A stretch of 64,000 nt of DNA from Sipunculus nudus. Its lineage: Eukaryota; Annelida; Sipuncula; Golfingiida; Sipunculidae. The position numbers and the translations under genes are program-made. Location of the stretch: the NCBI GenBank assembly GCA_026874595.1, contig CM049307.1, positions 61,904,370-61,968,369 of the forward strand, in the 5' to 3' direction. Of this stretch, positions 5,797-58,922 are shown one piece after another. Within the stretch, counting starts at the first letter, position 1, and each line of letters opens with the position of its first letter. The notes beneath the pieces were generated by a model that ran no database searches, was not told the origin of the DNA, and saw nothing but the letters and a program-made list of their open reading frames with translations.

Positions 5797-6267
5797 CAAT
5801 TGGAATTCCCGCCGCCTGTCAAACGCCGTGACTATCCCGGAGTCTTTCCACAACTCGTGCATAGCAGGTATATACTCCAAAAACAAACTTTCGTCCAACT
5901 TGACGTTGCTGTCATAGCTGAAGACGTACTCCCCAAATTTGGCATTGCTCGGGTTTCCCCACGGAATGTTAAGTTTATCCCTCGCATCAACTAGAACTTT
6001 CATACCTTTAACGATATTTGTGTATATGGTGTTCTTGAATTCTCTACGGGCGGCCTCGTCGTAATCTTTGCCATGGATAATCCGCATTTGTTTAAGAAAT
6101 GTACTTTTGCCACTCTCACCTGAGCCAAGCAAGAGGATTTTCATAGTCCGTCTGAATTTCACCTTATCTCTTGCAATCTCCTGATCGATGTACTTGCTTT
6201 TCCTCTTGGCCAGCTTGAGCTCATCGCTATCACAGAATCCGCAACAAGACCAAATCATGTCCGCCAT
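5797..6267 (-). CDS. GNA12/13-like: G protein alpha subunit, G12/13 class, first coding exon
   Basis: Encodes the N-terminal 157 residues of a heterotrimeric G protein alpha subunit, a membrane-bound GTPase switch that in the G12/13 class couples receptors to RhoGEFs and Rho. The start chosen (ATG at 6265-6267) gives MADMIW..., like vertebrate GNA13 (MADF...). Visible parts: Cys8, Cys9 and Cys12 as probable palmitoylation sites; the P-loop GSGESGKST at residues 48-56; FLKQMRIIHG just after; the helical domain with VLVDARDKL and IPWG, both typical of G12/13; and DSGI...AFDRRREFQL before the splice site. The exon ends at a GTAAGG donor (5791-5796 on the minus strand), at the FQL|GES junction expected for the family. 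Later exons (switch regions, DVGGQ, NKxD) were not found in 1-5796, so intron 1 is longer than 5.8 kb and the gene is cut by the window edge. Class is firm; GNA12 versus GNA13 cannot be told, and invertebrates often have a single gene for both. Confidence 0.95.
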
Positions 6268-6519
6268 GATGCCCTGGCTACCCAACCCATAATCACGTCA
6301 CGCTCAAGTGTTTCCGGGGGGAATCCCCAGGCAATCCGGGTATCCCAAGCGCGGTGCTCTACCCTTAGCGATAAATTTACATGTTACCTAAGTTATATTA
6401 TTATATTATAGATTTCAAGACTAACAAATATTTCTATTGAAAAGATTTATATAAGCCAATATTTGACTGAATAAAAAAATTATCACCAGCAAATTTTTAC
6501 CCATAATCCCAGTGGAAAG
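6268..6519. promoter_or_regulatory. Probable bidirectional promoter between G-alpha 12/13 and the M3 protein gene
   Basis: The two divergent start codons lie 252 bp apart, so both transcription starts and both 5' UTRs must fit here unless there are upstream non-coding exons. The half next to the G-alpha gene is richer in GC and CpG than the surroundings. Seen sites: TCACGTCAC near 6292-6301, a TTTCCGG (ETS-like on the minus strand) with GGGAATCCCC (NF-kB-like) near 6310-6330, and a YY1-like AAGATGGC overlapping the plus start codon at 6518-6525; the minus start codon sits in a similar ATCATGGCGG. Motif matches are by eye; promoter activity is inference from geometry. Confidence 0.6.
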
Positions 6520-6614
6520 ATGGCAGCGACCATAGTGAGGAGACGGGCCTGCCGGGGCCACCGGTTATTGCCCTTAAACTCCACCAGAAAAGCACCAATT
6601 TCCTATTATGTCTT
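6520..6614 (+). CDS. M3 protein exon 1, presequence
   Basis: Residues 1-32. ATG has A at -3 and G at +4. MAATIVRRRACRGHRLLPLN begins a stretch with eight Arg/Lys and no Asp/Glu, typical of a mitochondrial presequence. Donor GTGAGT at 6615. It ends in TT, which joins the G of exon 2 to make Leu32 and keeps the frame across a 6.3-kb intron. Confidence 0.85.
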
Positions 6615-18600: not shown

Positions 18601-20182
18601 ATCTTTGAGGGATTTTACGTACACAAGACTGGTGGTGCCACTTACAATCATTAGCTCAGCTGACTATAAGTCATCTGAGCTATAGTGGTGGTCCTTTGTT
18701 TGTTGGCCAACCGGCCTTCTGTCTGTCCATTAAACTGGCACGTTTATGTTTATAACATTTCAGTTTGATGGTAGATTGATCCACCGGGCATCATTTTCTG
18801 TATAATATTTGTGAATTACAGAAAAGAAGTGGCTCATCTGCTGGGATATGAGAATTTTGCAGAGATGTCTATGGAAACAAAAATGGCAGGGAGTGTAGAA
18901 AACGTAATCAGCATGATAGAAAGGTAACACACACATTTTGATCAACTGTCAGATTACAGTTTAGCCACCGACTGCGATGCAATGGTTTAGCTCTTCATTG
19001 GGAGATAAATGTAATTAAAATTTAAGTAAAAGCATATGCAAATTAACATTAAATCAAATGATAATATCAAATTTACATTGTTCAAGGTTCCATTTTTATG
19101 CTTTAATGTCCTTGCTGTATTTCCGTGAGATTTTTCTCCATTTACTTTGACTTTTATGTACATGTGCATACATCATGCATAACTTTTTGAGAGCATCAGT
19201 GGTACAAAATTGTACTCAATTTAATTCAGTTTGACAAACAAATTATCAGTGACTCATACAGTTGATTAATCATCACAAAAGAAGTAACTCTGCTGGCCTA
19301 AAACATTGTAAAACAAAATGAAATTAGTGATAATTTTTCAGACCATCTGAATTGTAGCATGAAGACAAAGTTCAAACCTGTTTCCCAAGAGGACATAGCC
19401 AGGTTAGAGAAGTTTGCCTGCAGTGAGGGCTTCCCGGGGCCCCTAGAATTATGGGATGTCCCATTCTGGAGGAGAAGAGAGAGGGATCACCTCTACGGGT
19501 ATGACACTCAGTTTCTCTATAATCATGTGTGAATATGTGTGTGTAATATGTGTATATGTTTGACACAGTCACCATTGATATCAAGGCATATGTCTGGTTT
19601 ACCTTTTCATCACACAGTTAGATGTACCCAAAATCTCAATCCATACTAAAAATTGGGTCACTACAACTTAGTTCCTTCGAGATATTAAAGAAAAACCTCA
19701 ATTTTCCATTTAAAACCCTTTGTTACATTTCAAGACTGTCTAATATCAAAACCATTGATCTGTTTTTGACCATATTTAAAATAAATATTCCACTATATGT
19801 TTCTTATGTACATACCAGAAATTTTTGTCAGTATTGTGTAATTTCATGAAGTTATGGAATAAAACATATGAAATTTGTAAAACATCAGGAAAGATATTTA
19901 CTCATGAGAATTATTGTAGCTAGTGTATTTTTTTTCAGGTATATAACTTTATTTGTTCAAGATTCATTTGTATACCCAAAATTAAATCTGATTTTTTTTC
20001 AATTTTTTAAATTATTAGCATAAATATAAAATCAGTACCTTACATTTTGGCCATTGCAATTTTTTTTCCTGTGAGTACTGTCTGATAAAATACCACAGCA
20101 TATACATATAGGGATTTAATCTGTTAAAATCTGAAATCTTGTCTAGGCAAATTTAAAATCTGCCTGGATTTCAATCTCATCT

Positions 20183-32200: not shown

Positions 32201-35200
32201 GACTTACTTTTCAAGGTTACAGCTTATTATAGAAAAAAGCTGAGGAGCTTATTTCTCAGGAACCACTTAATGGGACTGATTTTCTGTAACTGCTGCATGA
32301 GTATCGGGGCACCACCTACTATTTTTAATGAATTTTCATATGATTTTTAACTTTAGCCTCGTGAGGGGGATATTTCCTGAAGTATTCCACTCGGGAACTC
32401 ATTTTCTTCAGTGCTGATGCATAAACAAATGTCGATCAAGTTTGAAGGTGGGTGACCTTGACCTCCTTTACAAGGTCACAGAGCTTATTTCTCAGGAACC
32501 ATTTGGTGGATTGTTATGAAACATGGTATGGTCATTTGCCTTGGTGATATTTAAGTGCTGAATGAGTTTGAGGTGACAGACTTGCAAAGGTACCACATAC
32601 CTCTCTGGTTAAATTTTAAACATGAACCAGAGATATATGTACAGATCAACCATTTGAGAACAAATATTTCATAGTTGTTAGTAATACCACCCATAAACAG
32701 TGTGCTTGTGGCTGAGGGCTTTTGTCAGCTTTTGCTGATATTATAGTTATTCTAGAAATTCAGATTGCAAGCATTTTAAGCAGTGGTAGTAAGCACAGCA
32801 AAGGTATTTGTACATGTAACTAAGAATGACATAGGAAATATATTACTCAACATAATCACACATAATTAAAATCAAATCACAGACATTTTTCATATAACAG
32901 AGGATCTATCCTACACCTAAAATAAAAACAGTTATGAATTAATGAATATATATATATATATTATTGAATATCAAACATTATATCATAGAAGCTTTCACAT
33001 TGTTAAGAATTTTGATGCTAGCAGGTCCGAATGTCATGCTATATCTTGCTGTTGGGCGTGGTATGGATCTTAGCCTTTTTTTCCCGGACCCTAGGGTGTT
33101 GTATAAGCAGTGCATGAAAGGGATTGGCCATGATAGCCTTTGCTTTCTGTATGACACTGTAATAGTAGAGCTCATGCAACATTTTTACATTCCATAGTCC
33201 CAACTTTTTACTCAAAGAAACAATACTTTCAAGTTTATTTTTTGACTGGACACTGCAATTTCAAAACAGCCTGCAATACAAAATGTAGATGCAGACTGTA
33301 TTACTGACATGTAGAAAAGTTCCATTATTATTGCGTCCACTTTTATCCTGTTCAGTTTTCTCAAGAAGAACAGTCTTATACTAGCCTTTTTGCAAATGTT
33401 TGCCACATTATTTTCAAAGGTAAATTTTTTAATCAATTAGAGTACCCAAATATTTGAATTCTCTTATATTTTCTACCATCTGACCATTTATTATAAAAGG
33501 TTCGTGTTTTTCATTTCCTTTCCTTTAATCTACAATTGTTTCCTTCACAAACCTTTGTACCTCTAGCCTGTAATCCAAATCTGGTTTATTAGAAAGACCA
33601 ACCAATGGCATGTTGATCATGTGCCAAGTACAGTCCAACCTGTCTGAACGACCACCTGTGAAATGCGGGCACCTGGCTATTACGACCACTAGTTATCAGT
33701 CCCTTTTGAAATTCTGTTATATTAGCTATAGAAAAAACCTGTAAAATACGACCACCTGGCTATTACTGATTACGGGCAGTTTTTCCTGACCAAAGTGACA
33801 TATTACTAATTAATTGACCTGCCTAATGCGGGCACTCTTTGGGCTACTCACTGACCAGTGCTGACTGGTCGGTTGATTGACCATGCATGAAGTTGCGGTC
33901 ACTTGCACCGCTCTCTGTTTGTTTTACTGTTGAGCGTGTGTAAGGAGCACAGACTGATTAGGACTTATTAGGACCCTGGCAGTGGGCCTGGAGCCCCAGG
34001 CGGGCAACGTGACTGGCTCACATGACCTATCCACATGAATGGAGTGCCCCGAAGTCAATCTTTATTGTGTGCCTCTGTGATCTGTCTTTGATCTATTCAG
34101 TGCATTACATCAAATTACACAGATAAGTACATGTACATTTAGGTGCAATTAAAAAATACATGTAACACCAAGATTGTTCCCTCCTGCAAATATATTTTTA
34201 TTTATAGACATAAAGATGGTCTAATATGTATATTTCTGTCTTACATGACATTGTCAGCTAGATTCATGCAGTTCCTAAATGTTTAGAAACTGTCAAATAT
34301 GACCACTTGTCTATTACGACCACTTTGCTCAGTCCCTTGTGTGGTCCCATTAGACAGGTTCGACTGTATGTATGGTAAGCTGCAGGGGACTCCTATTTTG
34401 ACCTACCAAACCTGTTTTGTAGTATTTTCTGTGAGCTAAAATGAACTTTTCAATGTCTTCCTATGCATTGCAAAATTTTTTAACACAATAGCTTTCATAT
34501 CATCTTAAACTATTCCTTTGAGTCAGGAGATATTAATGAATTTGAATTGAAATTAATTATTTTAAAATATTATCTTTACAGCACTTTTATTTGTTTGTAT
34601 ATATTATGTCTGTTACCTATATTCTCAGGATTTTCTGCAGCAGTTAACACCAAATTTTACAGGAATTTTGATCTAGTGAATGTAAAGCTGCTGCTGGTTC
34701 CACCTGTGCTGACCTTATTATTGTGAACAAAGATGAAATATTCCACCTTTCCTGAATGTAAAGCAGATTTAAACAGTAGATGGCTTCCCCTATGTTGGAC
34801 TATTACTGACATGGTATTATCAGTTTCACAGTTTAGGCAAACTTTGCATAGAAAACCTCTGTTTGTTCAATATTGATGATGACAGATGGCTGCTTGCAGT
34901 CTGATGTGTGGTATTTTTGCTGACCAAGGCACAAGTCATAACAATTTGACCATGGACTTTCAAATTTTAATACACATAGACTTGGGTAAATTCTCATGTG
35001 TGTGTGTGTGTGTGTGTGTAAGGTTAAATTGAGAGGTGAAGAGCTGTGACTTACGACTAATGGCACCGTTATGCACTTGTACAAAAAAGGAAAAAAATTA
35101 AGCAGTAGCCATGGATATAAAAAAAATAGTAGTTTAACATTTGTAATTATGTATATTATTTGTTTGTAGGCTGGACTGGGAAAAGCTGTCAGAATATTTT

Positions 35201-38200
35201 CCTCTTCAGTCAGTACTGGATGGATTATTCAGCCTGTGTGATAAATTATTCGACATAGAGATACATGTAAGTGTACATCATATCTTTAAAAATGATATAG
35301 TCCGTCCCAGTACCCGTGTCCGCATGTTTTTTTGCGATAATTATTTTTAAAATATTCTTTAAAAAAGCCCTTTGGCCTGAAACAGATATACAGATATTCC
35401 ACCGATTTTGTGTAAAGTTGTTATATATCATGAAAAACGTATTTACTTTGCGACTCTTTTGCGTTATTTTTGCTGAAATACCTTGAATGGCGTCTTCCCG
35501 GCACTGCTAGACAGTACATTCCTCCATGTTACACTTTCCATGTCTATGGCTGCGTTTGGTGTTTGTTAGACAACAGTGACGTCACAAAGACGTCACAGTG
35601 ATCGGTCGCACGTCACCATCAATTGACTGACGTCATAAGTTTGACTGGCTTGTTTATTATCAGTTCTCAGGTAAGGAATAAGTCGTAAACGCTGTAGCTT
35701 GTTTTGTCATATTTTGGACTATTTGTTTCATATAAAATCAAGGCAAGGTAAGGTATTACTTTTTACGCAGGTAGTCGGCGGAATAGCTCCTGCAACCTTT
35801 GGACAAGAAAGGTTTACACTGCTTTACTTGTATAAAAAATTATTCCGGAAAAACATGCGGACACAGGTACTGGGACGGACTATAAATTTTTATTTTTACA
35901 CCATTTTATTTCAGTTAATAAATTAAATGTATATTATTATACTACAGCTCATATCCATTATTCTATAAATAGCAGAATTTTTTATGTTCCCAGTGGATAT
36001 ATTAACATGCATATTATAGTCACTTAGTTGATATACTGAAACTTAAACAAATTTATCTATGTGATCATGACAGGCCTCTCCATCTGTCATGTAGTTCATA
36101 AAAGTCTAAAGTCAACACAACCACTAGGATTTTATACAAATATTCTCAGAATTAATTTCAGCTGAGCACAGTGACCCACTGGTTCCTTGTTTGTAAAACA
36201 CCCCAAAATTGTATTCACAACTGGTAACATGATCAATTTGATTCCACAATGATTTAATTTAAATTTGAATCTGTACTGGTTACAAGACAAACTTGATCCA
36301 AGCCATGGTGATTACCCAATACTTTTCTTCACAGGACAGTACCAGTGGGACAGCAGTTTGGCATCCAGATGTCCGCTACTACAAGATAACAGATCCCAAA
36401 GGTATGACCTTACTCTTGTTCTGATTACACAGTGTAGTCTTCAATCAGTGTTGAAATGCTAGAATTTTTTCACCGTATTTAATTTTTTTTTCAATTTTTT
36501 GCCTCCGCCAGGGGGATATGCATTCATCTCCCATTGTGTGTATGTGTTTATTAGTTCATGTCTGTCTTTGTGCACAACAACTCACTCAGTCATGAACAGA
36601 ATCTAATGAAGATTCTGTTAGATTTTGGTGTGGATCTGGCATATGATCTGGCTATGGGAACATTATGAAGGAATATTCACAAATGTGCTGCCACTTGTGC
36701 CCAAATGAACCTAGGGACATAAGCTGAATAAGTAAGAGGCAGAGGCTTGCATTCATTAAAATGCAGATTTCTAGTTTCTGAATAAGATATAACCTGGCTT
36801 ACAAACCATGTCTGTTTTGGGACTCATCTAGTGGGGGTTAGGGAATTTTCAGTGCTATGAGAAATCTTTTTCTGCAATGTATAACCTTGCTGGTTTATTG
36901 TATACAGATAGAACATGAATACCCTGCATACACTCCCATATTTAGTGAACCAACTTATCTGTTTATTCATGTTCTGTCGTTTTATGTATTGTACTGTGGT
37001 CTGCCTTTTTGTTTGCAAAGGTTTCAAATTCATGATATTTGTGAAAGGAGAATTATTGCCTTCGTGAATAAGAGGTTTTAGGTAAATTGAAAGGTTGAAA
37101 AGATATATAATGAATAATAATATCATATATTTACCTACTGAAAATGAAGTCAACAGAATTTCCTGAAATTTTCATATTTAACCCTGTGAATTACATTTTG
37201 TTTCTAATTACTCATTGATCTCAAAATTAAGTAAGCCTGACCTTCCCCATACTCATTTATCTCAATAATAAGTAGGCCTGACCATCCCCCTACTCGTTGA
37301 CCTCAACATTATATAGGCCTGACCCTCCCCCTACTCATTGACCTAAACATTAAGTAGGCCTCATCCTCCCCCTACTCATTGATCTCAAAATAAAGTAGGC
37401 TTTACCCTCCCCCTGCTCATTGATCTCAACATTTAGTAGGCCTGACCCTCCCCTTACTCATTGATCTCAACATTAAGTAGGCCTGACCTTCCCCCTACTC
37501 ATTGACCTCAACATTAAGTAGGCCCGACCATCCCCCTACTCATTGACCTAAACATTAAGTAGGCCTGATCCTCCCTCTACTCATTGATCTCAAAATAAAG
37601 TAGGCCTGACCCTCCCCCTGCTCATTGATCTCAACATTAAGTAGGCCTGACCCTCCCCTACTCATTGATCTCAACATTAAGTAGGCCTGGCCAACCCCCC
37701 TACTCATTGACCTCAACATTAAGTAGGCCTGACCCTCCCCCCACTCATTGATCTAAACATTAAGTAGGCCTGACCTTCCCCCTACTCATTGACCTCAACA
37801 TTAAGTAGGCCTGGCCATCCCCCTACTCATTGACCTCAACATTAAGTAGGCCTGATCCTCCCCCTACTCATTGATCTCAACATTAAGTAGGCCTGGCCAT
37901 CCCCGTACTCATTGACCTCAACATTAAGTAGACCTGACCTTCCCCCTACTCATTGATCTCAACATTAAGTAGACCTGACCTTCCCTCTACTCATTGATCT
38001 CAACATTAAGTAGGCCTGACCCTCCCCCTACTCATTGATCTCAACATTAAGTAGGCCTCATCCTCCCCCTACTCATTGATCTCAACATTAAGTAGGCCTG
38101 TTCTTCCCCCTACTCATTGATCTCAACATTAAGTAGGCCTGGCAATCCCCGTACTCATTGACCTCAACATTAAGTAGGCCTGGCCATCCCCCTACTCATT

Positions 38201-47200: not shown

Positions 47201-50200
47201 CACCACACCTAATTGCAGAATATGACTTTATATTTCCATGTTGGAGTAAAGCTCACATTAGTATATTTCATGTATGGTCTTTTAAAACACTTCAGACGTA
47301 TGATCCATCACAAAGGAACAATGCACGCCCCTTTGCTTTGATGCCTACCGGTAAATATACTTGTTCACCAAACGTTTGACGTTGAAGTTGAATGAATAAC
47401 TGAAGTAGAAATCTGCATTTTAAGGAGTGAAAGCCTCCACAATGTGGGAGTCCCCATTTTGTGATGCTTCCCAAACTGTGCTTGCATTCACTAATTCGGC
47501 CCATATTCCCAAGTTCATAAATGCATAAGTGACTGTACATTTGTGAATATGCCTTGACAATGTTCCTGAAACCAGATTATGTGCCGCATCCACACCAAAA
47601 TCTAACCGATTCATTGCTGAAATGCTCTTAAAATTTATTGAGATTCCTTTCATGATTGCTTAATGTTTGAGGTATGTTGTGACACACAAGCATGGACATG
47701 GATGAATGCATACCCTCATGGCAGAAGCAATAATACCTGTACACAGTTGAGATTGAGTGGTGCCTATGAACACAAACAGAACTTGAAAATGGAAAACTGG
47801 TGTTTGGTCATCAATTTGTCATGTGCAGTTAATCATTGTATCGCCAGACATAGTCTGGAGATACTATGGTTTAGGCACGGTCGCGCCGCCGCCGCAGAGA
47901 TTTCTTTTGGACACAATAACTCAAAAAATATTTCACGGATCTTTACCAAACTTGGTATATGTATAGATATGGGTGAGAGGACGACGCCTATTTAAAATGA
48001 GGTCATGACCTCAACTAGGAGTGTGACCTTGACCTTGAATAGGTTCAATTTTGGGGAAAATCACACAAATTCTTAAATATCTCAAGAAAACTTGCATGGA
48101 TTGATCCCAAAATCAAGTTGATCGAAGATCATGGATAGGGTTGTCATGTTCCAGAAACTGGTGGCGCCACCTATTATTCTTTACTTGTTTTCATGCCGTT
48201 TAATATCCCCAAAATTGCTACTTGACAGTACTGTGAGCATAATAAGTCAAAAACTAATGGACAGATTTCTTTCATATTATGCAAATACATAGATATGGAT
48301 TTATGGGATGATGTTTATTTAAACTGGGGTCATGACCTTTCCTATGAGAGTGGCCTTGACCTTGAATATTGCCATATATGGTGAAAATCACACAAAATCA
48401 TTAATTTCTCAATAAGGGATGCATGCATTGGTCCAAAAATCAACTTGACCGAAGATCTTGGATAGTAATGTCATGTACCGGAAACAGGTGGCGCCACCTG
48501 TTATTCTTTTACTTGTTTTCGTGCCGTTTAATACCCCATCATTGCCACTTAACAGTACATTTATAACCTGTGAGCATTATAAGTAAAAAACTAATGGACA
48601 GATTTCTTTCATATTATGCATATACATAGACATGGGTTATGGGATGATGGGATGATGTATATATAAATTGGGGTCATGACCTTTCCTATTAGAGTGGCCT
48701 TGACCTTGAATATTGCCATATATGGTGAAAATCACACAAAATCATTAATTTCTCAATAAGGGATGCATTGATTGGTCCAAAAATCAACTTGAAAGAAGAT
48801 CTTGGATAGTGTTGTCATGTAAGGGAAACAGGTGGCGCCACCTGTTATTCTTTTACTTGTTTTCAAGCCGTTTAATACCCCATCATTGCCACTTAACAGT
48901 ATTGTGAGCATTATAAGTCAAAAACTAATGGACAGATTTCTTGCATATACATAGACATGGGTTAGGGGATGATGTATATTGAAATTTGGATCATGACCTT
49001 TTCTATGAGAATGACCTTTTCTATGAGTGTGGTCTGATATTAATTGTTGTTGAAGATGGGGGGCCTATTCTTAAAGGGGGGGGGGGATTAATTGTCTGGG
49101 GATACTATGGCACCTGCGGTGCCAAGAATTATCTAGTTTCTTACCATTTGTAGTAATCAGTTTGAGTTTTACACATATTCCAGGTTAAAAACTGCCCGGT
49201 TGACTAACGTGTGTTAATTCAGCATGATTTATTCTTACACAGATGGCAGCACAATAGCTGGGTTTTTCATCGACCCGTATGCCCGACCAGACAGTAAAAT
49301 GGGTGGTACATGGATGGAGTCAGGCAGAGGTAGGGAAATACTGCTTCACTTCTCTTTATGTGGTCTTGTATTTATACATAATTTTGTCATGACTATTAGA
49401 TTAAATATTGATATAAAATCATTTGCAGATAACATCTCTGACTTTAGAGATCAGTACTAATAACTTTTTAGTTCGTCACTGCTTCCTACCCAACAACAAG
49501 AGGCATGACCAAAATCAGTGTTAACGTTAACTTTATCATTAATTCAGTCATACTGTAATTGCAGCTGCAAACTGTGTAAACAAGACTGCAAGACAACTGC
49601 AAGACAAACACCTGTTCAATATTTGCAGATATTACATTCATGAAAATGTTTTCCATTCTCTGGGAACATTTTTGTTAATCATAACAGTTTTAAAGAAGCA
49701 AGTTTATTTTCCACTAGATTAAATGGGCATACAAAGATTCATTATATAATTCTGCTCTTCCATGAATGTTACACATAATTTTGCTTTTGCTTTTCCTACA
49801 GTGTATGAAGACACACTTGTGTATTGCCAATATATTAGAAACTTAATTGCCATAAATTTTGTGTTTGATAATTTTGCTCATTTTTGCAAATTACAATGTT
49901 CCATGTCAGGTGAGCTTTGAGTCCTGGAATTCTCTGAAATTTTTAATATTTTCTGTTTACAGAGAGGAGTGAAATGATGAACACCTTCCCAGTCTCCTAC
50001 CTGAACCTCAGCATTAACCCACCCAGACACGGCAGCCCAGCCCTGCTGAACCTCGATCAGTTAAATGCTCTCTTTTATGAGGTGAGACACCCTTAAATCT
50101 TCAAATTACATTGAAAACAACACCCTAACTTAGGCGAACAACTGGCTTTAACGGACAAGATTTTTAATTCCCTTCTCATGGTTTCCACTCAGAGAATTGG

Positions 50201-53200
50201 AGATGCTTCTGGGGGATATTTTTATTAATGGCCCCCCTGTCCGTCTGTCCGTCCTCTGTCCGCAAATTCGTTTCTGGATGATAACTCATGTTTTGATGGA
50301 CATATTGATTACAGACTTGAATTATTTTTGGCCCACCACTGAATGAAGAACCCTATTGATTTGGGGGTCATAAGGTCAAAGGTCAAGGTCACAGACCCAC
50401 AACTTTAAAAAGTTTGTGGATGCATTATAACCAAACTTTTCATCCCAGACCTTTCATCATGCACATATAGCTCACCTGCCAATAGGGGAAAATCCCTATC
50501 AATTTTGGGGTTACAAGGTCAAAGGTCGAGGTCAGAAAAGAGCCATCTGTCCAACAATTTGACAGATGATAACTCCAGTTTGAATTGACATTGCATTTCA
50601 AACTTGATTTATATATGGCCTACTACTAATGTAAGAACCATTTTGATTTTTGGGTCAAGAGATCACAGGTGAAGGTCATAGTATGTGCATTTTAAAAAAG
50701 ATTTTGGAGGCAAGGTAACTGTTTCCTCTAAAATCTTTCACTTTTGAATTACTTAACAATAGGGGAAGAACCATATTATTTTGGACACTTCAAGGTCAAG
50801 GTTGCAGGACCATTCTACTGCGAATCACTCACCGAACAAGGCTTACAGTTTATAACATCAGATGTTATTATGCTTTGTTGCTTGGGATGCTCCACTCCTA
50901 CACCTTCATACCTAACTGTCACTGATTCAACCATAACATCTTGGTTCAGGTGTTAAAATACTGTTTTCGGTCTGTCTCTGCATGTGATCAGGTCCTTTAC
51001 TATATTATTTCAAACATCACATAGCCCCACACTGTAAGTCTATGGCCCTTCCTGACCTGTCGGTATTCTAGTTTTATGGGGAGGTTTTTTACCATGAAAC
51101 TTTTTTTGTACCTTTACCAATGATATCATCTTTGTGTGTTTTACAGTTTGGTCATGGACTGCAGCAGATGCTGACTACAGTACCTTACAGTGAGGTGTCA
51201 GGCCAGCGTAACGTGCAATGGGACACGCTACAGGTGTGCAGTGTCCTTATGACCATGATCCTTAACAATAACCATGTGTTACAGCAGATCAGCAGCCACT
51301 ACAGCACGGGAGAACCCCTCAGTGATGAGCAGGTCCAGAAAATCACTTCAGGTCAGCACAACCCTTCATTATATAGCGATCCTCCTAATGTCACGGGAAC
51401 TATCAAGTTTCCTTCACAATCCCCTTGATTCAAATTTTTCAGGGCTCCTGCATGTCATAGGATATTATCTTGTATCTAAGAGCCAATAAAATCATAAAGA
51501 TAAACAAAGAAAGATACAGTTGTCATTTCATTTGTGGTCCTACATTTTTTGTAGTCAAAGAATGTCCCAATTTCACAATGATGAAAGTTTACAAATTTAT
51601 TTGATCTGTATCACTTTGATTTCTTAAGGGTCATCTGATTAGAAAATTGTTGATACAATGAAAAATTTCATTTGTCTTGAAAGAGAGAATTTTAGGGATC
51701 ATTACATTAATGATTTTGACCACATGCACTGTTTGAATCAAGGGGGTGGTTTAAGAAGCTTAAACATTTGCCCTGATGCTGTGAAACTGCTGACTGTATC
51801 AAATATGTTATGATATGTGAGTTATCTTTTTGTTGGTGGTTCTACCAGGAGTAGGGACTTTGTTGACAAATTATTATTTATTATATAATAATTTATTAAT
51901 ATTTGATGTCTTTGAAATGACTTTACTTATTACTCTGGTATGTTCAGACACACATGTGAAAATGAATTCTTCATTCAGGAACCTACAGAAACAATTTTAT
52001 TTTATGATTTATTCTGTGATCAAAATGTAAAATGCTGTCGAAACATTTATATTACTCTTTTAACTCTGAATTGTTTTTCATTATATACTTCATCAACAGA
52101 TCACTTTTCTTTTTTTACAGCCAGAAAACATTTTTCTTCATACGACATGATGAAGCAGCTGTATTTTAGTGCTTATGATATGGAGATATATATCAGGTAT
52201 GTGACCAGTCTGTTGATATTAAAAGATAAGGGTACCAGTCTGTTCTTACACCAGTGGTCTCAGGAATCTAAAAAAATGATAAATATTTATATTTTATTTT
52301 ACATATCCTCTTCCTAAGACTGTGACATCAGTACATGAACGAAGAAAGACTTAAAACTAGACAGCATGCATAATATGACTCAGTAAGGGGAATCAAGAGG
52401 AACCCCTAATATTGCACCAGCATTTACATATACCAATTAGTACAGACTATTTATAAACTATCTTTCTGGAGAAAATTGGGTGTATTAAGTAATGCAGGAT
52501 ATGATCTAATGTAGACATTATGGTACTTACAGATGTTGTATGTAACAAAATAAACAGATGACCAGCTGTTCCATACTAACTGAAATAACTTACATGACTA
52601 TATTGGTCCTAATCATTACAATCCTAGTTCAGGGGAAGGGCAACTTTTCTCTTCAGTAGTCTCATGAAAAATCAAGTTTTCCCACTCCCAACAACAACAA
52701 AAAAAAAACTAAAATTTGCTAAGTAAAAAAATATTACAAGTATTACTTAGGTTTGGTTAGCAAAATTTTAAATGTCTGGGATCACACAAATAGACATCAC
52801 TACTTATAATTCTATTGCCTTTTCAGCAATGATCACTGGCACCAGGCCATGCTTAAAGTATGGAAGGAATTCATGCCCGTCGCACAGACTGATGAAGACA
52901 ACCATCCATGTTCTCTCACCGCCATATTCTCAGATCAGTACCCTGCTGCATATTACAGCTTCAAGTGGGCTGAGGTAAGAATAATTCTAAAAAAAATCAC
53001 TCTCCAAGCAGATTCCTGAATTTAGCACATCCATTATATAACAGAATGTTTAGACAAAGTGCTATGGCATTAGTTAAAACATATTTATTGTAAACTTGGT
53101 TTTGGTAGATACTATGTTTTTGACCGGGCTACACAATCTCCCACGCTGCTGCCACGTTTGTTTCAGGAGAACTTCTCTATTATTTGCTTATTATCCTTTA

Positions 53201-56200: not shown

Positions 56201-58922
56201 TTTTCAGTTCCCAAAAATGGTGGCCCCACCTGCATATATTCTAATATTTACAATTTCTTTTTTGTTTTTGGGACTGTCAAATGACAGCAATCATGTCAGG
56301 TTTTCAGCTGTGTTTTCATTTAGTGTCCCAAAACCTTGTGTATTTATTGATCATAAGTGGGTGCCCTACAGCAATCACCCTGTCTGTCCATTTGTTTGTC
56401 TGTCTGTCTGTCTGTCCATCCATCCATACATCCACAAATCTGTTTCTGGATGATAACTGCAGTTTGGATAGATAGATTGGCTTCAAATGTGATTTAATAT
56501 TAATGGCCCACCCCTAAAGTAAGAATCATTTTGAATTGGGGGTCATGAGGTAAAAGGTGAAGGTCGCATGACCCACATCTTTAAAAAGATTGTGGATACA
56601 TTGTTAATATTCATCCCAAACCTTCCATTTTTCACATATGGCTTATCTGCTCAAAGTGAAAGAAATCTGTATATTTTGAGGTTACCTGGTTAGAGGTTGA
56701 GGTCACTGAACTCACATTATAAAAAAGACTTTTATGAAAAATCACAATTGTGCAAGTTCAAGGATAGTAAGTTGTCAAAAAGCTCATAAAAACATCCTGA
56801 ATTCCATGACAATATCCATGACTTTTGAAAATCACCCTCTTGCTGAACTCAATAAACCACCCACTTACTGAACAAATAAACCATTCCCTACTGAATAAAT
56901 AAACCACCCACCTACTGAACAAATAAACAGCTTATTTTTAGAGGCTGATACTTCTAAATATAGATCAGCAGAAGTGCAAACAGAGTACATTTTCATTTTT
57001 AACTTGGCTGACTTTCCGGTGAAAACTACCCACCTACAGAACTCAGTAAAAAGCTTATTTTTAGATATTTGGCAATCAGCCTTTGTCGATCATCCAGCCA
57101 ACACAGTACTCATCTGGAGCATTACACTTAGAAACATTTTAACTTACCAAAAGGGAGATCCTTAAAAAATCTGCTTTGAAACTAGGTAACAAGTGACTGC
57201 CACATATATTCTTTGATTTACAGGGCATCTTTGAGCAACCTAAAAAAAGTTCTCTTGCTGTAAAATTTGATAAAAAGCTTCAGTATTTCAAATAAATAAT
57301 GCATGAGTTGCCATGATTCTAGCTTTGCATTTTGATCATGGACAATTTCGTGGTCAAGTCCGTGGAAAATTAGTATTTTCTCTCCTCAGTTTTAGGGATG
57401 GGGGCATATGGGTCAACATCTGCATGTTTTTTAGAAAAATAAATATTCTAGTTTACACATATATCCAAGTCAGCATGCAGAATTTGACTAAAATTGGGCT
57501 TTCCAATTCTTCACAAACCTTATTCTTCTGTCATACAACCTGTATATACCAGTCATGATTGGTTTCAGTCTTCACATATGTATAACCTGTCACTGAAGGA
57601 AAAACCCTGTTGACTTTGATGTCAGAAGGTAATATCAGTTATTGATAAATTCCTGTTGTGAATGTCAGGCTTATAATGTCATGCTAGTTAGCTGAGAAAA
57701 CCTATGTTTTCCGGTATAAACATATTGTTACACTTCAAAACTGCTGAAAACCGCTTTTGTTTTGGTTATTTGAAATAACCATTCCTGCATATATCTCTTC
57801 TGTACATGCAAGAAATCAGGTGCTGCATTCAGTTCTGGAGACCTCCTCTGAGACCCTTGTAGACCCTGAGACCGATCTTTCCGAAACCTGTCATAGTTAT
57901 TCCCTCAGCTATGAGGTTGCCCAGACTGAGAATTTGTGTGGCTGAGAATTTGTCTTTATTATATTTTACAGATGATTGCTGCTGATCTCTATGAAGCTTT
58001 TGAAGAAGTTGGCTTTGAAGATCTGGATAAGACTGCATCTGTTGGCAAAAGGTAAAATTTTTTATTCAAATGCCAAATAATAAGTGTGAACTGGAAGTAA
58101 ATAAATCAAACTTTTCATCAGTACTGTCTTGAAGATGCTTGTACTATTGTAGGTGTGTATGTGTATGTGTGGAGGGGTAAATAAAGTACTGGTATTCATG
58201 CCTCATATAAAAAAGAAACATCTAGTTTTACCTGGAAAGTAAACTAAAACTTTACCTCAGTCTTAATCATTACCTTATTAATGATGCTTCTTGGGACTAT
58301 GTGTGTACTATGGGGTGATTAAAAAAAATCACACCTAATAAAGGAGAATTAAATGTAGATTTCCTTGGAAAATGTGATAGTTCAGTAGTTTTGTGAATGA
58401 ATGACATCGAATATACACTTGACATAATGGAATTCAGCCTTTTCTGAATCACCACTTAATCAAAGATTCCTCTAAGAGTATGGATGACAACATTGAGTAA
58501 AGTATTCACACATATTAAAATGAAAAAAATCTGGCTCTGCTTGGGACATAGGATAATAGTTTAAAAAACACTTATAAAAACCGATTTGACTGCATTCCTC
58601 CTTTCAGAATCACCCTGAAGATGTCTTTTTAAGTGTATAATAAAATGAGTTTAACAAACATTCACACCTAAAAAAAGAAAAAGAAAATATATTGTTTTCT
58701 GAGAAAATAGGATAATACTTAATTGGGATAATAGAATTATATGTTAAGTTGTACCATTGAATTCAGCCTTTTCCATGTTTATTTATTTATTTTTGAATCC
58801 ACAGGTTCCGTGATACATACTTGGCTCATGGAGGGGGCATTCCAGCAAATGAGGTCTTCCGTCAGTTCCGTGGGAGAGATCCATCCCAGGATGCATTGTA
58901 CAACTACTATGGCCTGAGCTAA
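6520..58922 (+). CDS. Mitochondrial-type oligopeptidase A-like M3 family protein, catalytically degenerate (whole gene, 18 coding exons)
   Basis: Joined exons: 6520-6614, 12876-13039, 14134-14273, 15128-15196, 15648-15808, 16677-16781, 17021-17209, 18822-18923, 19358-19498, 35170-35266, 36335-36401, 49243-49329, 49963-50081, 51147-51351, 52121-52196, 52827-52974, 57972-58051, 58805-58922. They total 2163 nt: 720 residues plus TAA, close to bacterial OpdA (about 680) plus a presequence. The first 36 residues have many Arg/Lys and no acidic residue, as in mitochondrial presequences. Residues about 45-300 match the helical N-domain of OpdA; 300-715 match the peptidase M3 domain, including VWHPDVR, FFIDPYARPDSK.GG.WM, Y.TGEPLS and the C-terminal FRGRDPSQDAL. 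Family members are zinc peptidases that clear short peptides, but here HExxH is Y511-E-F-G-H515, the third ligand Glu is Gln541 and the substrate His is Ala638. I infer a pseudoenzyme. Complete reading frame and splice sites argue for a kept gene, not a decayed one. Confidence 0.93.
6615..8102 (+). other. Intron 1 of the M3 gene, proximal part
   Basis: No repeat or exon recognised. The intron runs to 12875 and contains the hAT-like element and the 329-bp array. Confidence 0.6.
8103..8863. mobile_element. hAT-like non-autonomous element with GGTACA-rich arms
   Basis: 761 bp in intron 1 of the M3 gene. Inverted ends CAGGGTTGGGGCCAGGTA and its degenerate counterpart ending TACCTGGTCCAAACCCTG. 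Both arms are strings of AGGTACAGGTAC. Flanks ATACCATG and ATCTATG could be a decayed 8-bp target duplication (one gap, one change). Family call is by end similarity to the two better preserved hAT elements. Confidence 0.65.
8353..8520. repeat. 69-bp tandem repeat, about 2.4 copies
   Basis: Units start at 8353, 8422 and 8491 with CAAGTSTA.T.AAAGT; the third is partial. Lies in the core of the hAT-like element at 8103-8863. Confidence 0.85.
8864..10734 (+). other. Intron 1 of the M3 gene, middle part
   Basis: Unique AT-rich sequence; nothing further that I can support. Confidence 0.55.
10735..12648. repeat. 329-bp tandem array, about six units, intron 1
   Basis: AGGTGTTATCTCATGTTGTT recurs at 10741, 11070, 11407, 11736, 12065 and 12394: period 329 bp, once 337 owing to an 8-bp insertion near 11390. 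Inner units are nearly identical; the outer ones (first and last) share variants, e.g. TTGATCTC and GAAAACTGAGC. The last unit is cut and joined to a short piece of the unit again. An 82-codon frame recurs in the units, but 329 is not a multiple of 3 and sequence identity alone explains it. Confidence 0.95.
12876..13039 (+). CDS. M3 protein exon 2
   Basis: Residues 32-87. Acceptor TTTCAG, donor GTAAGC. NPVMRFDEVPRFNVISPNAI aligns with the OpdA start region NPLL....LPPF..I....V, the first conserved block of the N-terminal domain. Confidence 0.92.
13040..14133 (+). other. Intron 2, no feature
   Basis: AT-rich, no repeat boundaries recognised. Confidence 0.6.
14134..14273 (+). CDS. M3 protein exon 3
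   Basis: Residues 87-133. Acceptor CCACAG, donor GTAAGT. FNPMEELSVPMNTAWKTAKH corresponds to the family block where helices pack over the active-site cleft (..PLE.L...L...W..V.HL). Ends in phase 0. Confidence 0.92.
14293..14555 (+). repeat. Dispersed repeat R1, copy 1 (intron 3)
   Basis: GATTTGGGTTTGTCTGTCTG, then a TGACTTTCCTAAA.ATTATC block, GGTCAGTGATTGC, and CACCAACAGGTGTC, in the same order as the copy in intron 5 at 16075. No terminal inverted repeats seen; family not recognised. Confidence 0.75.
15128..15196 (+). CDS. M3 protein exon 4
   Basis: Residues 134-156, 23 codons. Acceptor TATCAG, donor GTAAAA. IHPQIERAKNERWISEPLYN matches the family's block ...F...L..S.PIYNA. Too short to stand alone, but phase and alignment both fit. 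Confidence 0.88.
15648..15808 (+). CDS. M3 protein exon 5
   Basis: Residues 157-210. Acceptor TTTTAG, donor GTAAGG. Contains LVDMYLLEGRLNGIEL and the F...L..L..... pattern (RFVGTLKRLIDSKNHYR), matching the OpdA segment L....R.F.LSG..L....K.RF..I...L..LS..F. Confidence 0.9.
16075..16349 (+). repeat. Dispersed repeat R1, copy 2 (intron 5)
   Basis: Same order of blocks and same strand as the copy at 14293, roughly 75-80 percent alike by eye. Not a segmental duplication, since flanks differ. Confidence 0.75.
16677..16781 (+). CDS. M3 protein exon 6
   Basis: Residues 210-245. Acceptor TTTCAG, donor GTAAGT. SHTIEDTALIRSMPKSLVEQ corresponds to the family's ...I.D...L.GLP......A, at the expected distance from exon 5. 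Confidence 0.9.
17021..17209 (+). CDS. M3 protein exon 7
   Basis: Residues 245-308. Acceptor TTACAG, donor GTATCC. GPWKVSLQPQVYSQFMEYC then RLLRWNLWQAYQNRAS match the W..TLD.P.Y.P.M.....R.LR...Y.AY..RAS block that opens the M3 peptidase domain. Confidence 0.93.
17258..18115. repeat. Degenerate ~35-bp minisatellite, intron 7
   Basis: About 25 imperfect units of the form ACACCTTTCTATTATACACACCTCTCTATTAAGG with unit length drifting between 33 and 37 bp. Much more diverged between units than the 41-bp array in intron 11, suggesting an older array. Confidence 0.9.
18653..18745 (+). repeat. 5' fragment of dispersed family A (intron 7)
   Basis: Begins with the hairpin AGCTCAGCTGACT-ATA-AGTCATCTGAGCT followed by a GTGGTCC...TCTGTC segment; stops after TGGCACG, 77 bp before exon 8. 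Same head as the copy at 59181. Confidence 0.7.
18822..18923 (+). CDS. M3 protein exon 8
   Basis: Residues 308-342. Acceptor TTACAG, donor GTAACA. VAHLLGYENFAEMSMETKMA matches the family hallmark LR...A.LLGY.NYAE.S...KMA. Confidence 0.94.
19358..19498 (+). CDS. M3 protein exon 9
   Basis: Residues 342-389. Donor GTATGA. PLELWDVPFWRRRERDHLYG matches the L..WD..F....... block. Two AG acceptors lie 16 nt apart: the upstream one (19340-19341) has the better pyrimidine tract but gives an in-frame TAG after five codons; the downstream one (19356-19357) keeps the frame and is used in this model. Confidence 0.85.
19610..20303 (+). repeat. Family A dispersed repeat, 5'-truncated copy (intron 9)
   Basis: Aligns along most of its length with 59310-59790 (blocks TAATATCAAAACCA, ATGTACAT.CCAGAAAT, AATATAACTTTATT, GTATACCCAAAATTA) and ends with the family 3' terminus CCCATGGGTCCCTTGTT. 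A CA/TA microsatellite is embedded near the 3' end. Confidence 0.75.
20183..20231. repeat. (CA)n(TA)n microsatellite
   Basis: About ten CA followed by about thirteen TA units. Confidence 0.95.
20304..21257 (+). other. Intron 9 part with a CpG-containing patch
   Basis: About 20640-20850 is richer in GC and CpG (GCGCGGG, GGGCGG, GGCGGA twice, GTCGCTTGTCGAC) than the surroundings. No gene or transposon signature could be attached to it. Confidence 0.4.
21258..22596 (+). repeat. Family B dispersed repeat with AGGTCA-rich modules (intron 9)
   Basis: Starts with a near-perfect hairpin AGCTCAGCTGACT-A-AGTCAGCTGAGGT and ends GACCCATGGCTCCTTAGTT, so both ends are shared with family A. The interior is different: roughly 200-260 bp modules with AGATGATAACTCCAG, TTCAAACTTGATTTA, CCACCACTAAAG and AGGTCAAGGTCACAGG. 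Related copies at 50208 and 55878. Confidence 0.75.
22745..22828. repeat. 17-bp tandem repeat next to a transposon-like end
   Basis: GACTTAAGACCACCTGT repeats about four times, followed at 22845-22874 by AGGTGGTCTTAACTCTCAGG and TTTTACTGTA, which look like the inverted end of a TA-flanked element. No matching left end was found. Confidence 0.6.
23524..24207. mobile_element. TA-flanked terminal-inverted-repeat element, pogo/Tc1-mariner type (intron 9)
   Basis: 684 bp, ends CATTAGAGTGCTGTTTTT and AAAAAGCGCTCTACTG, with TA on both sides (23522-23523, 24208-24209). Non-coding. The end sequence resembles Tigger/pogo termini; class assignment is by eye. Confidence 0.72.
24210..26410. other. Intron 9 part, no gene
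   Basis: Only the C16 run at 24616 stands out. A 103-codon open frame at 25780-26091 shows no family pattern. Confidence 0.55.
24616..24631 (+). repeat. (C)16 homopolymer
   Basis: Sixteen C in a row; length may be unreliable. Confidence 0.9.
26411..26716. mobile_element. Small terminal-inverted-repeat element (MITE), 306 bp
   Basis: Left end AAGGCC...AAAAAGGTATGCTTCTCAGGC and right end GCCTGAGAATCATACC...GCCT form inverted repeats of about 30 bp with A-tract length differences. The interior is AT-rich and partly self-complementary (AAATTTTTAT and ATAAAATTT-like blocks). Lies about 350 bp downstream of the GPCR stop. Confidence 0.7.
26984..26989 (-). terminator. Candidate poly(A) signal of the GPCR gene
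   Basis: AATAAA on the minus strand about 78 bp past the GPCR stop codon. Correct spacing for a short 3' UTR; use not shown. Confidence 0.35.
27067..29280 (-). CDS. Orphan class A (rhodopsin-like) GPCR with very long third intracellular loop, intronless
   Basis: A 737-residue seven-helix receptor, plasma membrane. Helices by eye: TM1 about 16-41, TM2 54-79, TM3 92-114, TM4 130-153, TM5 184-208, TM6 655-681, TM7 690-713. N-glycosylation sites at Asn12, Asn168 and Asn177. NPILY (706-710) at the end of TM7 and P6.50 in TM6 place it in class A. Loop 3 spans about residues 209-655 and holds a very basic patch (CHHKKSRKKHRKDHKR), as in receptors that bind scaffolds there. Unusual: Ser60 where Asp2.50 is expected, LRL in place of DRY, Thr in place of Trp6.48, and no Cys pair linking TM3 to extracellular loop 2. 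Ligand and subfamily not recognised. It lies wholly within intron 9 of the M3 gene on the opposite strand. The ATG chosen is the first in frame and gives a short extracellular tail, normal for the class. Confidence 0.88.
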   Translation of the reverse strand: MSPSMNTPYNANVTHFLAIAIDILVCVCGVISNVGALRDVLQWKALKKKYTGTINLCLSSLLLCSIGAPLHIAVSLEFILGKSHEALEILAETIHQYLQCVMWVSLIIVMCLRLRTAWRLAFQPPVRQHVLLQICVTWISPLAVVLYMVIVILHEKKTNPYFLQVGGNSTSLVTWINTTPALLVQDTVCILTVLLLMFICYVSILILMHRRAKLILPLKGAVSAMQQRSNRLQNQDIHCNSRSKAKVSTAWVSKSNIDISKIQTENNMRKIEAKNETLRLQNMSTSTMSLPEAVDVMTDKNVTSFPAQLDVKTEMAETQQPVSFSRSLLSPKNTLNSEQVDKNCTPTGTPYCHGCQQTEQHKVTKLRQKSFHYNGSSDSIPYSDNLSEPLNPLRHTRKSADQIWHTADLDSFSLHDGSSPNPPHFLRSIKSCHHKKSRKKHRKDHKRPKSQLKGMSSSQSISLNTSSNVTHGTFDVSSSGQVKKSSCYCSQLNSIGHKTSGLIRANTESEVDFGTHGKGLTIEDGVKLHQPSVTSNDLSESSFNNSVPHTSKIYKRRPSIRRSRTFSHILDQYMLENLNHDTHERYFSKEDLTITVKDTNILPTTNNETSFSQLTNENIKQEPEKTETSISDENTGMSKNSVQYTFKSHNHLLVAMKRTVVLFAAFMVSTLPLCGLQISYLLSHSVHIEAYLPPAKAFSYSIGVVNPILYIYQNMGLQQDIRKMKLQQQGSNARESS
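29281..30589. other. 5' flank of the GPCR gene within intron 9
   Basis: The GPCR promoter and 5' UTR should lie here on the minus strand. No TATA box, CpG island or other clear signal was recognised. Confidence 0.45.
30590..30810 (+). repeat. Diverged piece of a family A-like 3' region (intron 9)
   Basis: TTATGTTAATAATTATACTT, GCTCATGTCCATTATTCTTT and a terminal CAGCTGAGCCCTTGTT resemble 35905-36191 in the same order. Low identity; extent uncertain. Confidence 0.4.
32005..32735. repeat. Dispersed repeat with short inverted ends (intron 9)
   Basis: AGCCCTCAACC near the left end and GGCTGAGGGCT near the right end are inverted. Between them two similar halves occur in tandem: each has GGATAT.TC.., AAATGTC..TCAAGTTTGAAG, GGTGACCTTGAC and TTTCTCAGGAACCA. 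Looks like a two-module non-coding element; family unknown. Confidence 0.55.
32960..33628 (-). pseudogene. LINE reverse transcriptase 3' fragment, decayed
   Basis: On the minus strand, from about 33600 down: KPDLDYRLEVQRFVK, then INGQMVENIREFKYLGTLID, then NVANICKKASIRLFFLRKLN and IIMELFYMSVIQSA, then RLRSIPRPTARY...SIKILNN near 33030. This is the order seen at the C-terminus of jockey/RTE-like LINE polymerases (thumb and tail). In-frame stops (e.g. after TLID) and a frame change between pieces show it is dead. A further GVP-type RT motif is faintly readable near 34390-34405, beyond the transposon at 33631-34366, which may have inserted into the LINE. Confidence 0.78.
33631..34366. mobile_element. 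TA-flanked terminal-inverted-repeat element (Tc1/mariner type), 736 bp
   Basis: Ends CAGTCCAACCTGTCT and AGACAGGTTCGACTG with TA on each side (33629-33630, 34367-34368). Subterminal ACGACCAC / TATTACGACCAC repeats on both sides. No transposase. It abuts the LINE fragment at 32960-33628. Confidence 0.82.
34997..35018. repeat. (TG)11 microsatellite
   Basis: Eleven TG units, 150 bp before exon 10. Confidence 0.95.
35170..35266 (+). CDS. M3 protein exon 10
   Basis: Residues 389-421, after a 15.7-kb intron that contains the GPCR gene. Acceptor TTGTAG, donor GTAAGT. SEYFPLQSVLDGLFSLCDKL matches the family's L.PYFPL..V..GLF....KLF.I. Ends in phase 0, 29 bp before a small transposon. Confidence 0.93.
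35296..35884. mobile_element. MITE with ~36-bp terminal inverted repeats and CRE cluster, intron 10
   Basis: 589 bp. TATAGTCCGTCCCAGTACC at the left is the inverse of the right end GGTACTGGGACGGACTATA, and the match runs on for about 36 bp with one change. Starts 30 bp after exon 10. The centre has four CRE-like sites: TGACGTCA at 35577-35584 and 35628-35635, AGACGTCA at 35588-35595, CACGTCAC at 35609-35616. No coding capacity. Confidence 0.85.
35890..36191 (+). repeat. Family A-like 3' end (intron 10)
   Basis: AT-rich stretch ending CAGCTGAGCACAGTGACCCA...TTCCTTGTT, the 3' terminus shared by families A and B. It directly follows the CRE-bearing MITE. Confidence 0.5.
36335..36401 (+). CDS. 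M3 protein exon 11
   Basis: Residues 422-444. Acceptor CTTCACAG, donor GTATGA. AVWHPDVRYYKITDPK matches VWHPDVRF.... of bacterial OpdA almost exactly. Followed by the 12.8-kb intron that holds the 41-bp minisatellite. Confidence 0.93.
36491..36774 (+). mobile_element. Helitron-like short element (intron 11)
   Basis: 3' end has a hairpin TGCATT-CATTAA-AATGCA (36748-36765), then GATTT, then CTAG followed by T, which fits the Helitron 3' rule. The left end is less sure: TCAATTTTTTGCCTCCGCC at 36491 is a candidate TC start. Confidence 0.5.
37209..43668. repeat. 41-bp minisatellite, about 158 units, intron 11
   Basis: Unit ACTCATTGATCTCAACATTA followed by AGTAGGCCTGACCCTCCCCCT, 41 bp, over 6.46 kb. 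Variant positions recur in ordered series: GATCTC/GACCTC, GGCCTGACC/GACCTGACC/GGCCTCATC/GGCCTGGCCATC/GGCCTGTTC. Larger blocks are duplicated: a 985-bp block (24 units) at 37561 and 38546, and a 410-bp block (10 units) at 39001 and 39411. The first and last units are the most diverged, as expected for unequal exchange. The unit is not a multiple of 3 and long frames are absent or accidental. Confidence 0.98.
43733..44236. mobile_element. 504-bp element with 12-bp perfect inverted ends and three AAGGTCA hairpin modules
   Basis: ATGTCTCCCCTC (43733-43744) and GAGGGGAGACAT (44225-44236) are exact inverses. Between them three modules each carry TGACCTTGACCTTCATCTT followed by AAGGTCA, which folds into a 7-9-bp stem, plus a TTGAACCA.T.AACATTT block. 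Sits only 64 bp after the minisatellite. Family not recognised; target duplication not evident. Confidence 0.65.
44237..47853 (+). other. Distal intron 11, repeat remnants
   Basis: At 44790-45165 the word GTCTTAAA or close variants recurs many times on both sides of a unique core, suggesting an old inverted or tandem element. The rest is unique apart from the local duplication at 45958-46235. No exon recognised. Confidence 0.45.
45958..46235. repeat. Local duplication, two copies
   Basis: TAACCTGTG.AA.CCAAG and, further on, GTTAGCTGTTGTTAGAAAGT...TTTATGTCAAGTAACA each occur twice (45958/46066 and 45992/46169). The second copy has about 69 extra bases between the two blocks. Confidence 0.8.
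47854..49136 (+). mobile_element. Helitron-like non-autonomous element, copy 1 (intron 11)
   Basis: Starts TCTGGAGATACTATGG; ends with hairpin GGCACC-TGC-GGTGCC (49109-49123), nine bases, then CTAG followed by T. The interior has three modules of about 327-344 bp, each with the palindrome GGTGGCGCCACC (from 48160, 48487, 48831), GAGCATAATAAGTCAAAAAC and a GGTCATGACC palindrome followed by TGACCTTGACCTT-like half-sites. The base before the TC start is G, not the A expected for a Helitron target, so the left border is less certain. Confidence 0.68.
49243..49329 (+). CDS. M3 protein exon 12
   Basis: Residues 444-473. Acceptor ACACAG, donor GTAGGG. IAGFFIDPYARPDSKMGGTW matches the strongly conserved I..FY.D.Y.R..K.GGAWM block next to the zinc site. 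Confidence 0.94.
49330..49962 (+). other. Intron 12, no feature
   Basis: Unique AT-rich sequence between two exons; nothing recognised. Confidence 0.7.
49963..50081 (+). CDS. M3 protein exon 13, first half of the zinc motif (altered)
   Basis: Residues 473-512. Acceptor TTACAG, donor GTGAGA. MNTFPVSYLNLSINPP matches PVA.L..N...P...KPALL. It ends ...ALFYE, where active members have LFHE: the first zinc-ligand His of HExxH is Tyr511, while the catalytic Glu512 is kept. TAT is clear in the sequence. Confidence 0.93.
50208..50830 (+). repeat. Family B internal modules (intron 13)
   Basis: Two and a half modules related to 21258-22596 and 55878-56790. Holds AGGTCA-A-AGGTCA-AGGTCA at 50373-50391, a perfect DR1 plus an abutting third half-site, and AGGTCAAAGGTCG near 50517. 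Head and tail of the family are missing. Confidence 0.7.
51147..51351 (+). CDS. M3 protein exon 14, second half of the zinc motif (altered)
   Basis: Residues 513-581. Acceptor TTACAG, donor GTCAGC. Begins FGHGLQQML, keeping the second zinc His (515). Gap-free alignment to WDAVELPSQFMEN gives W537-D-T-L-Q541-V-C-S-V-L-M: the third zinc ligand Glu is Gln541 and the conserved PSQF.EN pocket is gone. HYSTGEPLSDE then agrees well with HY.TGE.LP.E. Confidence 0.94.
51352..52120 (+). other. Intron 14, no feature
   Basis: AT-rich with short T tracts before exon 15. Nothing recognised. Confidence 0.6.
52121..52196 (+). CDS. M3 protein exon 15
   Basis: Residues 581-606. Acceptor TTACAG, donor GTATGT. 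FSSYDMMKQLYFSAYDMEIY matches F......LRQL.FA..D..LH of active members. Confidence 0.93.
52827..52974 (+). CDS. M3 protein exon 16, substrate-binding loop (altered)
   Basis: Residues 606-655. Acceptor TTTCAG, donor GTAAGA. TAIFSDQYPAAYYSFKWAE aligns to SHIFAGGYAAGYYSYKWAE: His becomes Ala638, the Gly-Gly of the flexible loop becomes Asp642-Gln643 and the last Tyr becomes Phe651; Tyr644 and Tyr648 are kept. Confidence 0.94.
53293..54477. mobile_element. TA-flanked terminal-inverted-repeat element, 1185 bp, intron 16
   Basis: CCGTAAAATCTGTGAAATTT at the left mirrors AAATTTCACAGATTTTATGG at the right; the match covers about 25 bp with one change, and TA flanks each side (53291-53292, 54478-54479). 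Inside, a block of about 150 bp is present twice in direct order (53660-53800 and 53980-54125: GACGT.CATGAAGTTT.ACGG, GGATAATCAG, ATTAACTC). No transposase frame. Confidence 0.82.
54962..55636 (+). mobile_element. Helitron-like non-autonomous element, copy 2 (intron 16)
   Basis: Starts TCGGGGGATACTATG and ends hairpin GGCACC-TGC-GGTGCC (55609-55623), nine bases, CTAG, then T, as in the copy at 47854. Only about one and a half internal modules remain. A piece of a third 5' end lies at 53107-53160 (GATACTATGTTTTTGACC). Confidence 0.68.
55878..56790 (+). repeat. Family B dispersed repeat (intron 16)
   Basis: Head GCTCAGCTGACTG...TCAACTGAGGTATAGGAATGG matches that at 21258, followed by the same TAGCAGGGCACAAAT, GTGTCCCAAAACCT and TCTGTCTGTCTGTC blocks and at least one AGGTCA module. 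It begins about 240 bp after a Helitron-like element. The 3' terminus is not clear. Confidence 0.7.
56791..57971 (+). other. Rest of intron 16, no gene
   Basis: A short tandem (ACTGAACAAATAAACCACCC, about three units) at 56850-56935 and possible remnants of repeat families. No exon or gene recognised. Confidence 0.6.
57972..58051 (+). CDS. M3 protein exon 17
   Basis: Residues 656-682. Acceptor TTTTACAG, donor GTAAAA. MIAADLYEAFEEVGFEDLDK matches the VL.AD.F.AFEE.G block near the C-terminus. Confidence 0.92.
58805..58922 (+). CDS. M3 protein exon 18, C-terminus and stop
   Basis: Residues 682-720 and TAA. Acceptor CCACAG. RFRDTYLAHGGG then FRQFRGRDPSQDALYNYYGL match the family's C-terminal R.. 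I L..GG....  F..FRGR.P..DALL...G, so the protein ends where the family ends. I did not find a clear nearby AATAAA in the 3' flank. Confidence 0.95.

Follow-up and report, generated by a model that had tools for sequence, protein, structure and literature searches.

The stretch of DNA analysed here (the window, 64,000 nucleotides of Sipunculus nudus contig CM049307.1, with positions counted from its start) carries on its plus strand a gene for a peptidase of family M3, which runs from about 6520 to 58922 (some 52 kb) and is made of 18 exons and 17 introns. The gene is intact and the core of its product is largely kept, yet two of the three zinc ligands have been replaced, as have several residues of the pocket; it has what defines a metallo-pseudopeptidase, namely catalytic residues lost from an intact gene. 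A preliminary description of the locus had spoken of a probable pseudopeptidase, a term well supported by these changes, and had placed the gene at 49963-52974, an interval that does contain exons 13 to 16 but is not the whole gene. The joined coding sequence is 2163 nucleotides long, 720 codons with the sole stop at the end, and all 17 introns are GT-AG with phases that add up, as that description had held, although the agreement on 720 amino acids and on absolute residue numbering is not independent because exon 1 was picked to give that length.

The gene was recovered by spliced alignment to OpdA, and then to OpdA together with the plant oligopeptidase A structure 4ka8; a tblastn search with E. 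coli OpdA and the two spliced alignments place the exons in one collinear plus strand set. Exon 1 (6520..6614) provides the start ATG, a basic N-terminus (MAATIVRRRACRGHRLLPLNSTRKAPISYYV) and a phase 2 donor GTGAGT, and is a candidate without homology support, one of five, set by hand as were the start of exon 2 and the 52196 donor. Spliced alignment gives exon 2 (12876..13039, LPEIPPDTPETNPVMRF..., acceptor placed by hand), exon 3 (14134..14273), exon 4 (15128..15196), exon 6 (16677..16781) and exon 17 (57972..58051), while tblastn and spliced alignment both find exon 5 (15648..15808), exon 7 (17021..17209), exon 8 (18822..18923), exon 9 (19358..19498), exon 10 (35170..35266), exon 11 (36335..36401, VWHPDVRYYKITDPK), exon 12 (49243..49329, DGSTIAGFFIDPYARPDSKMGGTWMES), exon 13 (49963..50081), exon 16 (52827..52974) and exon 18 (58805..58922), the last of these reading FRDTYLAHGGG...FRGRDPSQDALYNYYGLS up to a TAA stop. 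Exon 14 (51147..51351) was found by tblastn, and for exon 15 (52121..52196) the donor CAG/GTATGT was picked by eye over the 52211 proposed by the program because its phase 2 meets the acceptor at 52827. With E up to 10 the tblastn search with OpdA returned 11 matches in one collinear set, and two weak extra matches from a further tblastn search of the window (E 0.15 and 0.26) were taken as chance; neither a second M3 copy nor an alternative catalytic exon was found by tblastn within the window. The catalytic exons and the substitutions they carry are independent of the choice of exon 1.

Read codon by codon, the active site departs from the family pattern just as first described. Exon 13 ends ...LFY(511)E(512), so that Tyr511 (TAT, 50076-50078) replaces the first zinc His and the HExxH motif at 511-515 reads YEFGH, with Glu512 (GAG) kept. 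The second zinc His, His515 (CAT, 51153-51155), is also kept and opens exon 14 as FGH(515), which continues into WDTLQ(541)VCSVLMTM; here the Glu serving as third zinc ligand is Gln541 (CAG, 51231-51233), aligned without a gap, and the PSQFMEN pocket is lost, residues 543-549 being CSVLMTM with V545, T548 and M549. Exon 16 carries Ala638 (GCC, 52921-52923) in place of the substrate-side His, Asp642 (GAT)-Gln643 (CAG) in place of Gly-Gly, and Phe651 (TTC, 52960-52962) in place of the last Tyr, while Tyr644 and Tyr648 are retained. The residues replaced at 638 and 651, like Tyr644 and Tyr648, count among the substrate-side His and Tyr residues of the family. The zinc of plant TOP2 has two His and one Glu as its ligands, and TOP1 and TOP2 with the first HExxH His changed to Ala left a test peptide uncleaved; according to the authors, THOP1 and neurolysin too lose their activity through a similar change (PMC8215294). 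The window protein would thus very probably hold no stable catalytic zinc and have no peptidase activity.

The substitutions go beyond chance variation. The comparison was with 78 references, made up of 76 prokaryote proteins, OpdA and 4ka8, the prokaryote loci having been located by two motifs that do not touch the zinc site (VW[HN][PN]DVR[FY] and [SNE]K[RM]GG[AT]WM) and taken from the 80 of 597 matched stretches that resemble the window protein most. H511, E512, H515, Q545, E548, N549, H638, Y644, Y648 and Y651 are invariant in 78/78, and E541, G642 and G643 are each present in 77/78; four of the 80 loci that were missed by the frame filter, and so stand outside these counts (L044, L051, L053 and L057), were checked apart and all have the usual form at these 13 listed positions. 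A search of viral contigs with the single window protein gave one pattern match and no relative, whereas a search with the alignment yielded ten relatives from 93 pattern matches, and in all ten H511, E512, H515 and E541 are present; one of the two patterns used there spans the HExxH region and accepts either His or Tyr.

A few relatives depart from the usual form on their own account. An OpdA from a Lysobacterales metagenome-assembled genome (L056) has Ala for the third zinc-ligand Glu (WDAVALPSQ), the sole case in the 78, which may reflect an inactive bacterial variant or simply an error. That of a Trichodesmium metagenome-assembled genome (L037) has Ser-Ser for Gly-Gly (IFSSSY) and keeps H511, E512, H515, E541 and H638. 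An M3 protein from the viral collection (L090) keeps HExxH and the third Glu and has Val for the substrate-side His, Asp for the first Gly and His for the Asn of PSQFMEN, and three further viral-collection relatives (L087, L089 and L092) each depart at one of the 13 positions.

Family membership is clear from the Pfam Peptidase_M3 profile (PF01432), which scores 373.8 bits over residues 265-717 against a gathering score of 27, with TOP_N adding 41.1 bits. The match to 4ka8 is full-length and collinear (E 1.8e-108, 366.9 bits, residues 37-719), and those to the other plant oligopeptidase A structures are close behind (4ka7, E 4.7e-108; 4put, E 1.7e-107); these structures are of Arabidopsis TOP1/OOP and TOP2. 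Thimet oligopeptidase (best chain E 2.2e-50, 174.9 bits), neurolysin (best chain E 9.7e-50) and Dcp (E 2.9e-44, 154.7 bits) are all more distant by score, and so on its sequence the window protein is of the OpdA/OOP type, a subfamily called M3A. The best NCBIfam model is that for oligopeptidase A (NF008159) at 360.3 bits, which lies below its curated cut-off of 927 and so does not support an equivalog assignment, the model having been made for prokaryote annotation. In a tree built with 19 of the 76 prokaryote proteins, hand-picked for spread, and with Dcp as outgroup, the window protein and 4ka8 fall in a 15-row set (100/99), outside of which lie Dcp and seven proteobacterial rows including E. 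coli OpdA; the position of the window protein is unsure, with a long branch and a composition unlike that of the alignment.

When near-invariant columns are defined as those at least 97% conserved, 17/32 are lost in the catalytic segments (506-518, 536-550 and 634-652) and 15/71 elsewhere, for which a one-sided Fisher test gives p 0.0015 (with cut-offs of 90, 95 and 99% instead, p is 0.026, 0.014 and 0.026). By the same count 4ka8 has lost 1/33 catalytic and 1/71 other columns, and OpdA 0/32 and 5/71. Outside the segments retention climbs with conservation (17/143, 38/171, 49/120, 60/105 and 56/71), a gradient that partly reflects ancestral differences. One explanation is a young pseudogene, whose function was lost recently and which is now drifting with no stop or frameshift so far. 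The long end branch of the window protein fits this, at 3.22 changes per column where the median is 0.46 (seven times as long, with only the outgroup Dcp longer at 4.13), as do the columns lost outside the catalytic segments and the simulations at 0.03 neutral changes per site, in which 6% of 200 runs are free of stops and the splice sites are intact with a probability of 0.13. However, at 0.05 per site the mean is 4.3 stops with 3% of 200 runs stop-free, at 0.1 per site 0/200 are so, and simple arithmetic requires about 0.34 per site for neutral change of 17/32 catalytic columns, at which the 68 splice bases would all be intact with a probability of about 5e-13. The gene has no internal stop in its 720 codons and 17/17 canonical introns, and a coding-like guanine plus cytosine content (0.508 at third codon positions versus 0.369 in introns). 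The intact frame and splice sites thus argue against long neutral decay and favour a loss of catalysis that would lie far back, with selection still acting on the fold, and a young pseudogene is an improbable account of the locus.

Two other explanations were considered. Catalysis could persist through a changed metal site or a changed chemistry, with Glu512 as the base and a metal bound by Tyr511, His515 and either Gln541 or an acid close by; Glu512, His515, Tyr644 and Tyr648 are indeed all kept, and in astacins one of the zinc ligands is a Tyr. Against this, the replacements come as a set that takes in two ligands, the substrate-side His, the last Tyr, Gly-Gly and PSQFMEN, and the single His to Ala change described above already halts cleavage by TOP1 and TOP2 (PMC8215294), which makes an altered enzyme distinctly unlikely. 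As for the possibility that the assembly or the sequencing is at fault, or that other exons with an intact HEFGH were overlooked, no point in favour was found; the named changes are spread over three exons (13, 14 and 16), some of them by codon reading need at least two base changes from any codon for the usual residue, and within the window the OpdA tblastn search, with E up to 10, met the HExxH and WDAVE regions only once each, and so such an artefact is very unlikely indeed.

Overall the gene product is probably a full-length OpdA/OOP-type M3 homologue that has lost catalysis and been kept by selection for its fold, and there is good reason to expect that the protein is made and selected. 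Several points weigh against so simple a view. Selection on the dead form would be drawn from one sequence, and the comparison set consists of prokaryotes and one plant. The catalytic segments were picked with the motifs and losses already known, and the p value shifts with the cut-off; relaxation may be partly general because 15/71 near-invariant columns outside the segments are also lost. The kept residues Glu512, His515, Tyr644 and Tyr648 leave some room for other metal chemistry, a short recent neutral phase would be compatible with the figures at 0.03 per site, and the dating argument would be weaker if the pocket had been under positive selection.

Quite what an inactive M3 protein might do can be approached from the changes themselves. 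The M3 family degrades signal, presequence and other short peptides, and in the proposed mechanism the M3 clamshell would be kept and its cleft rebuilt to bind a peptide or a partner. A catalytically inactive THOP1 form used in substrate-capture assays is a precedent for a dead M3 protein holding peptides (PMC6722639). The loss of Gly-Gly and PSQFMEN besides the zinc ligands suggests a new surface, beyond a mere trap that does not cut, and speaks against a simple retention of the same peptide without cutting. The binding, decoy or scaffold function for presequence peptides suggested in the preliminary description would be conjectural. Function through binding of peptides or a partner by the remodelled cleft is a tentative proposal, to be held at somewhat less than even chances, and a mitochondrial site of action is doubtful, its sole local support being the N-terminus (residues 1-34 with 7 K/R and 0 D/E), which is basic, free of acids and compatible with a mitochondrial presequence but lies on exon 1, the sole exon without homology support. 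A fuller proposition, to be held at rather less than even chances, is that in some line of animals an M3 pseudopeptidase of the OpdA type, its cleft rebuilt, has been retained specifically to bind peptides or a partner, probably in mitochondria; it would be the first non-catalytic M3 member described.

Other features of the window lie around and within the gene. A single open frame at 5782-6297 on the minus strand holds part of a G-alpha gene (PF00503, E 8.8e-37, with residues 31-167 aligned to profile positions 1-137 of 333). The frame stands head to head with exon 1, its end 222 bases from the ATG, and a promoter shared by the two genes is possible. A 747-codon open frame (27067-29310, minus strand) lies inside the 15.7-kb intron 9; its match to 7tm_1 is weak (18.3 bits where the cut-off is 30.5, E 0.0017), NPILYIYQ stands near its end, and it is possibly a divergent receptor. 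Intron 11 contains a 6.5-kb minisatellite (37209-43667) of about 157 copies of a 41-bp unit with 91% match, strongly C-rich on the plus strand, and intron 1 a tandem array (10736-12615) of 5.7 copies of a 329-bp unit with 96% match, whose repeated 107-amino-acid open frames look spurious.

Judged by title and the start of the abstract, no paper about a natural inactive M3 protein appeared among the matches listed from the open-access literature, and one paper applies "catalytically inactive" to THOP1 oligomers as well as to the substrate-capture form (PMC6722639). A 2024 review of inactive metallopeptidases has no M3 member in its Tables 1 and 2, and the words oligopeptidase, neurolysin and thimet do not occur in its text (PMC11266112). 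If a dead member is indeed maintained, it would open the way to studying the functions of the M3 clamshell apart from cleavage.

Compared with known systems, the window protein is most like plant oligopeptidase A 4ka8, with which it shares the full-length collinear match and the 15-row tree set, but where 4ka8 has HEFGH, the third Glu, PSQFMEN and FSHIFAGGY it has YEFGH, Gln, CSVLMTM and LTAIFSDQY. To E. coli oligopeptidase A (prlC/opdA) it is 31% identical, with NF008159 as best model, but its catalytic residues are replaced and its score is far below the cut-off. Thimet oligopeptidase and neurolysin are M3 proteins too, but match about 190 bits more weakly than the OpdA type and are active enzymes. 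Pseudopeptidases of other families, namely Gone early (M13), alpha-MPP (M16), FtsHi (M41), EBP1 (M24) and Tma108 (M1), resemble the window protein in having replaced zinc or catalytic residues and being kept as proteins; according to the review, Tma108 keeps all substrate-binding residues but one, and some metallo-pseudopeptidases have roles in import, translation or signalling (PMC11266112).

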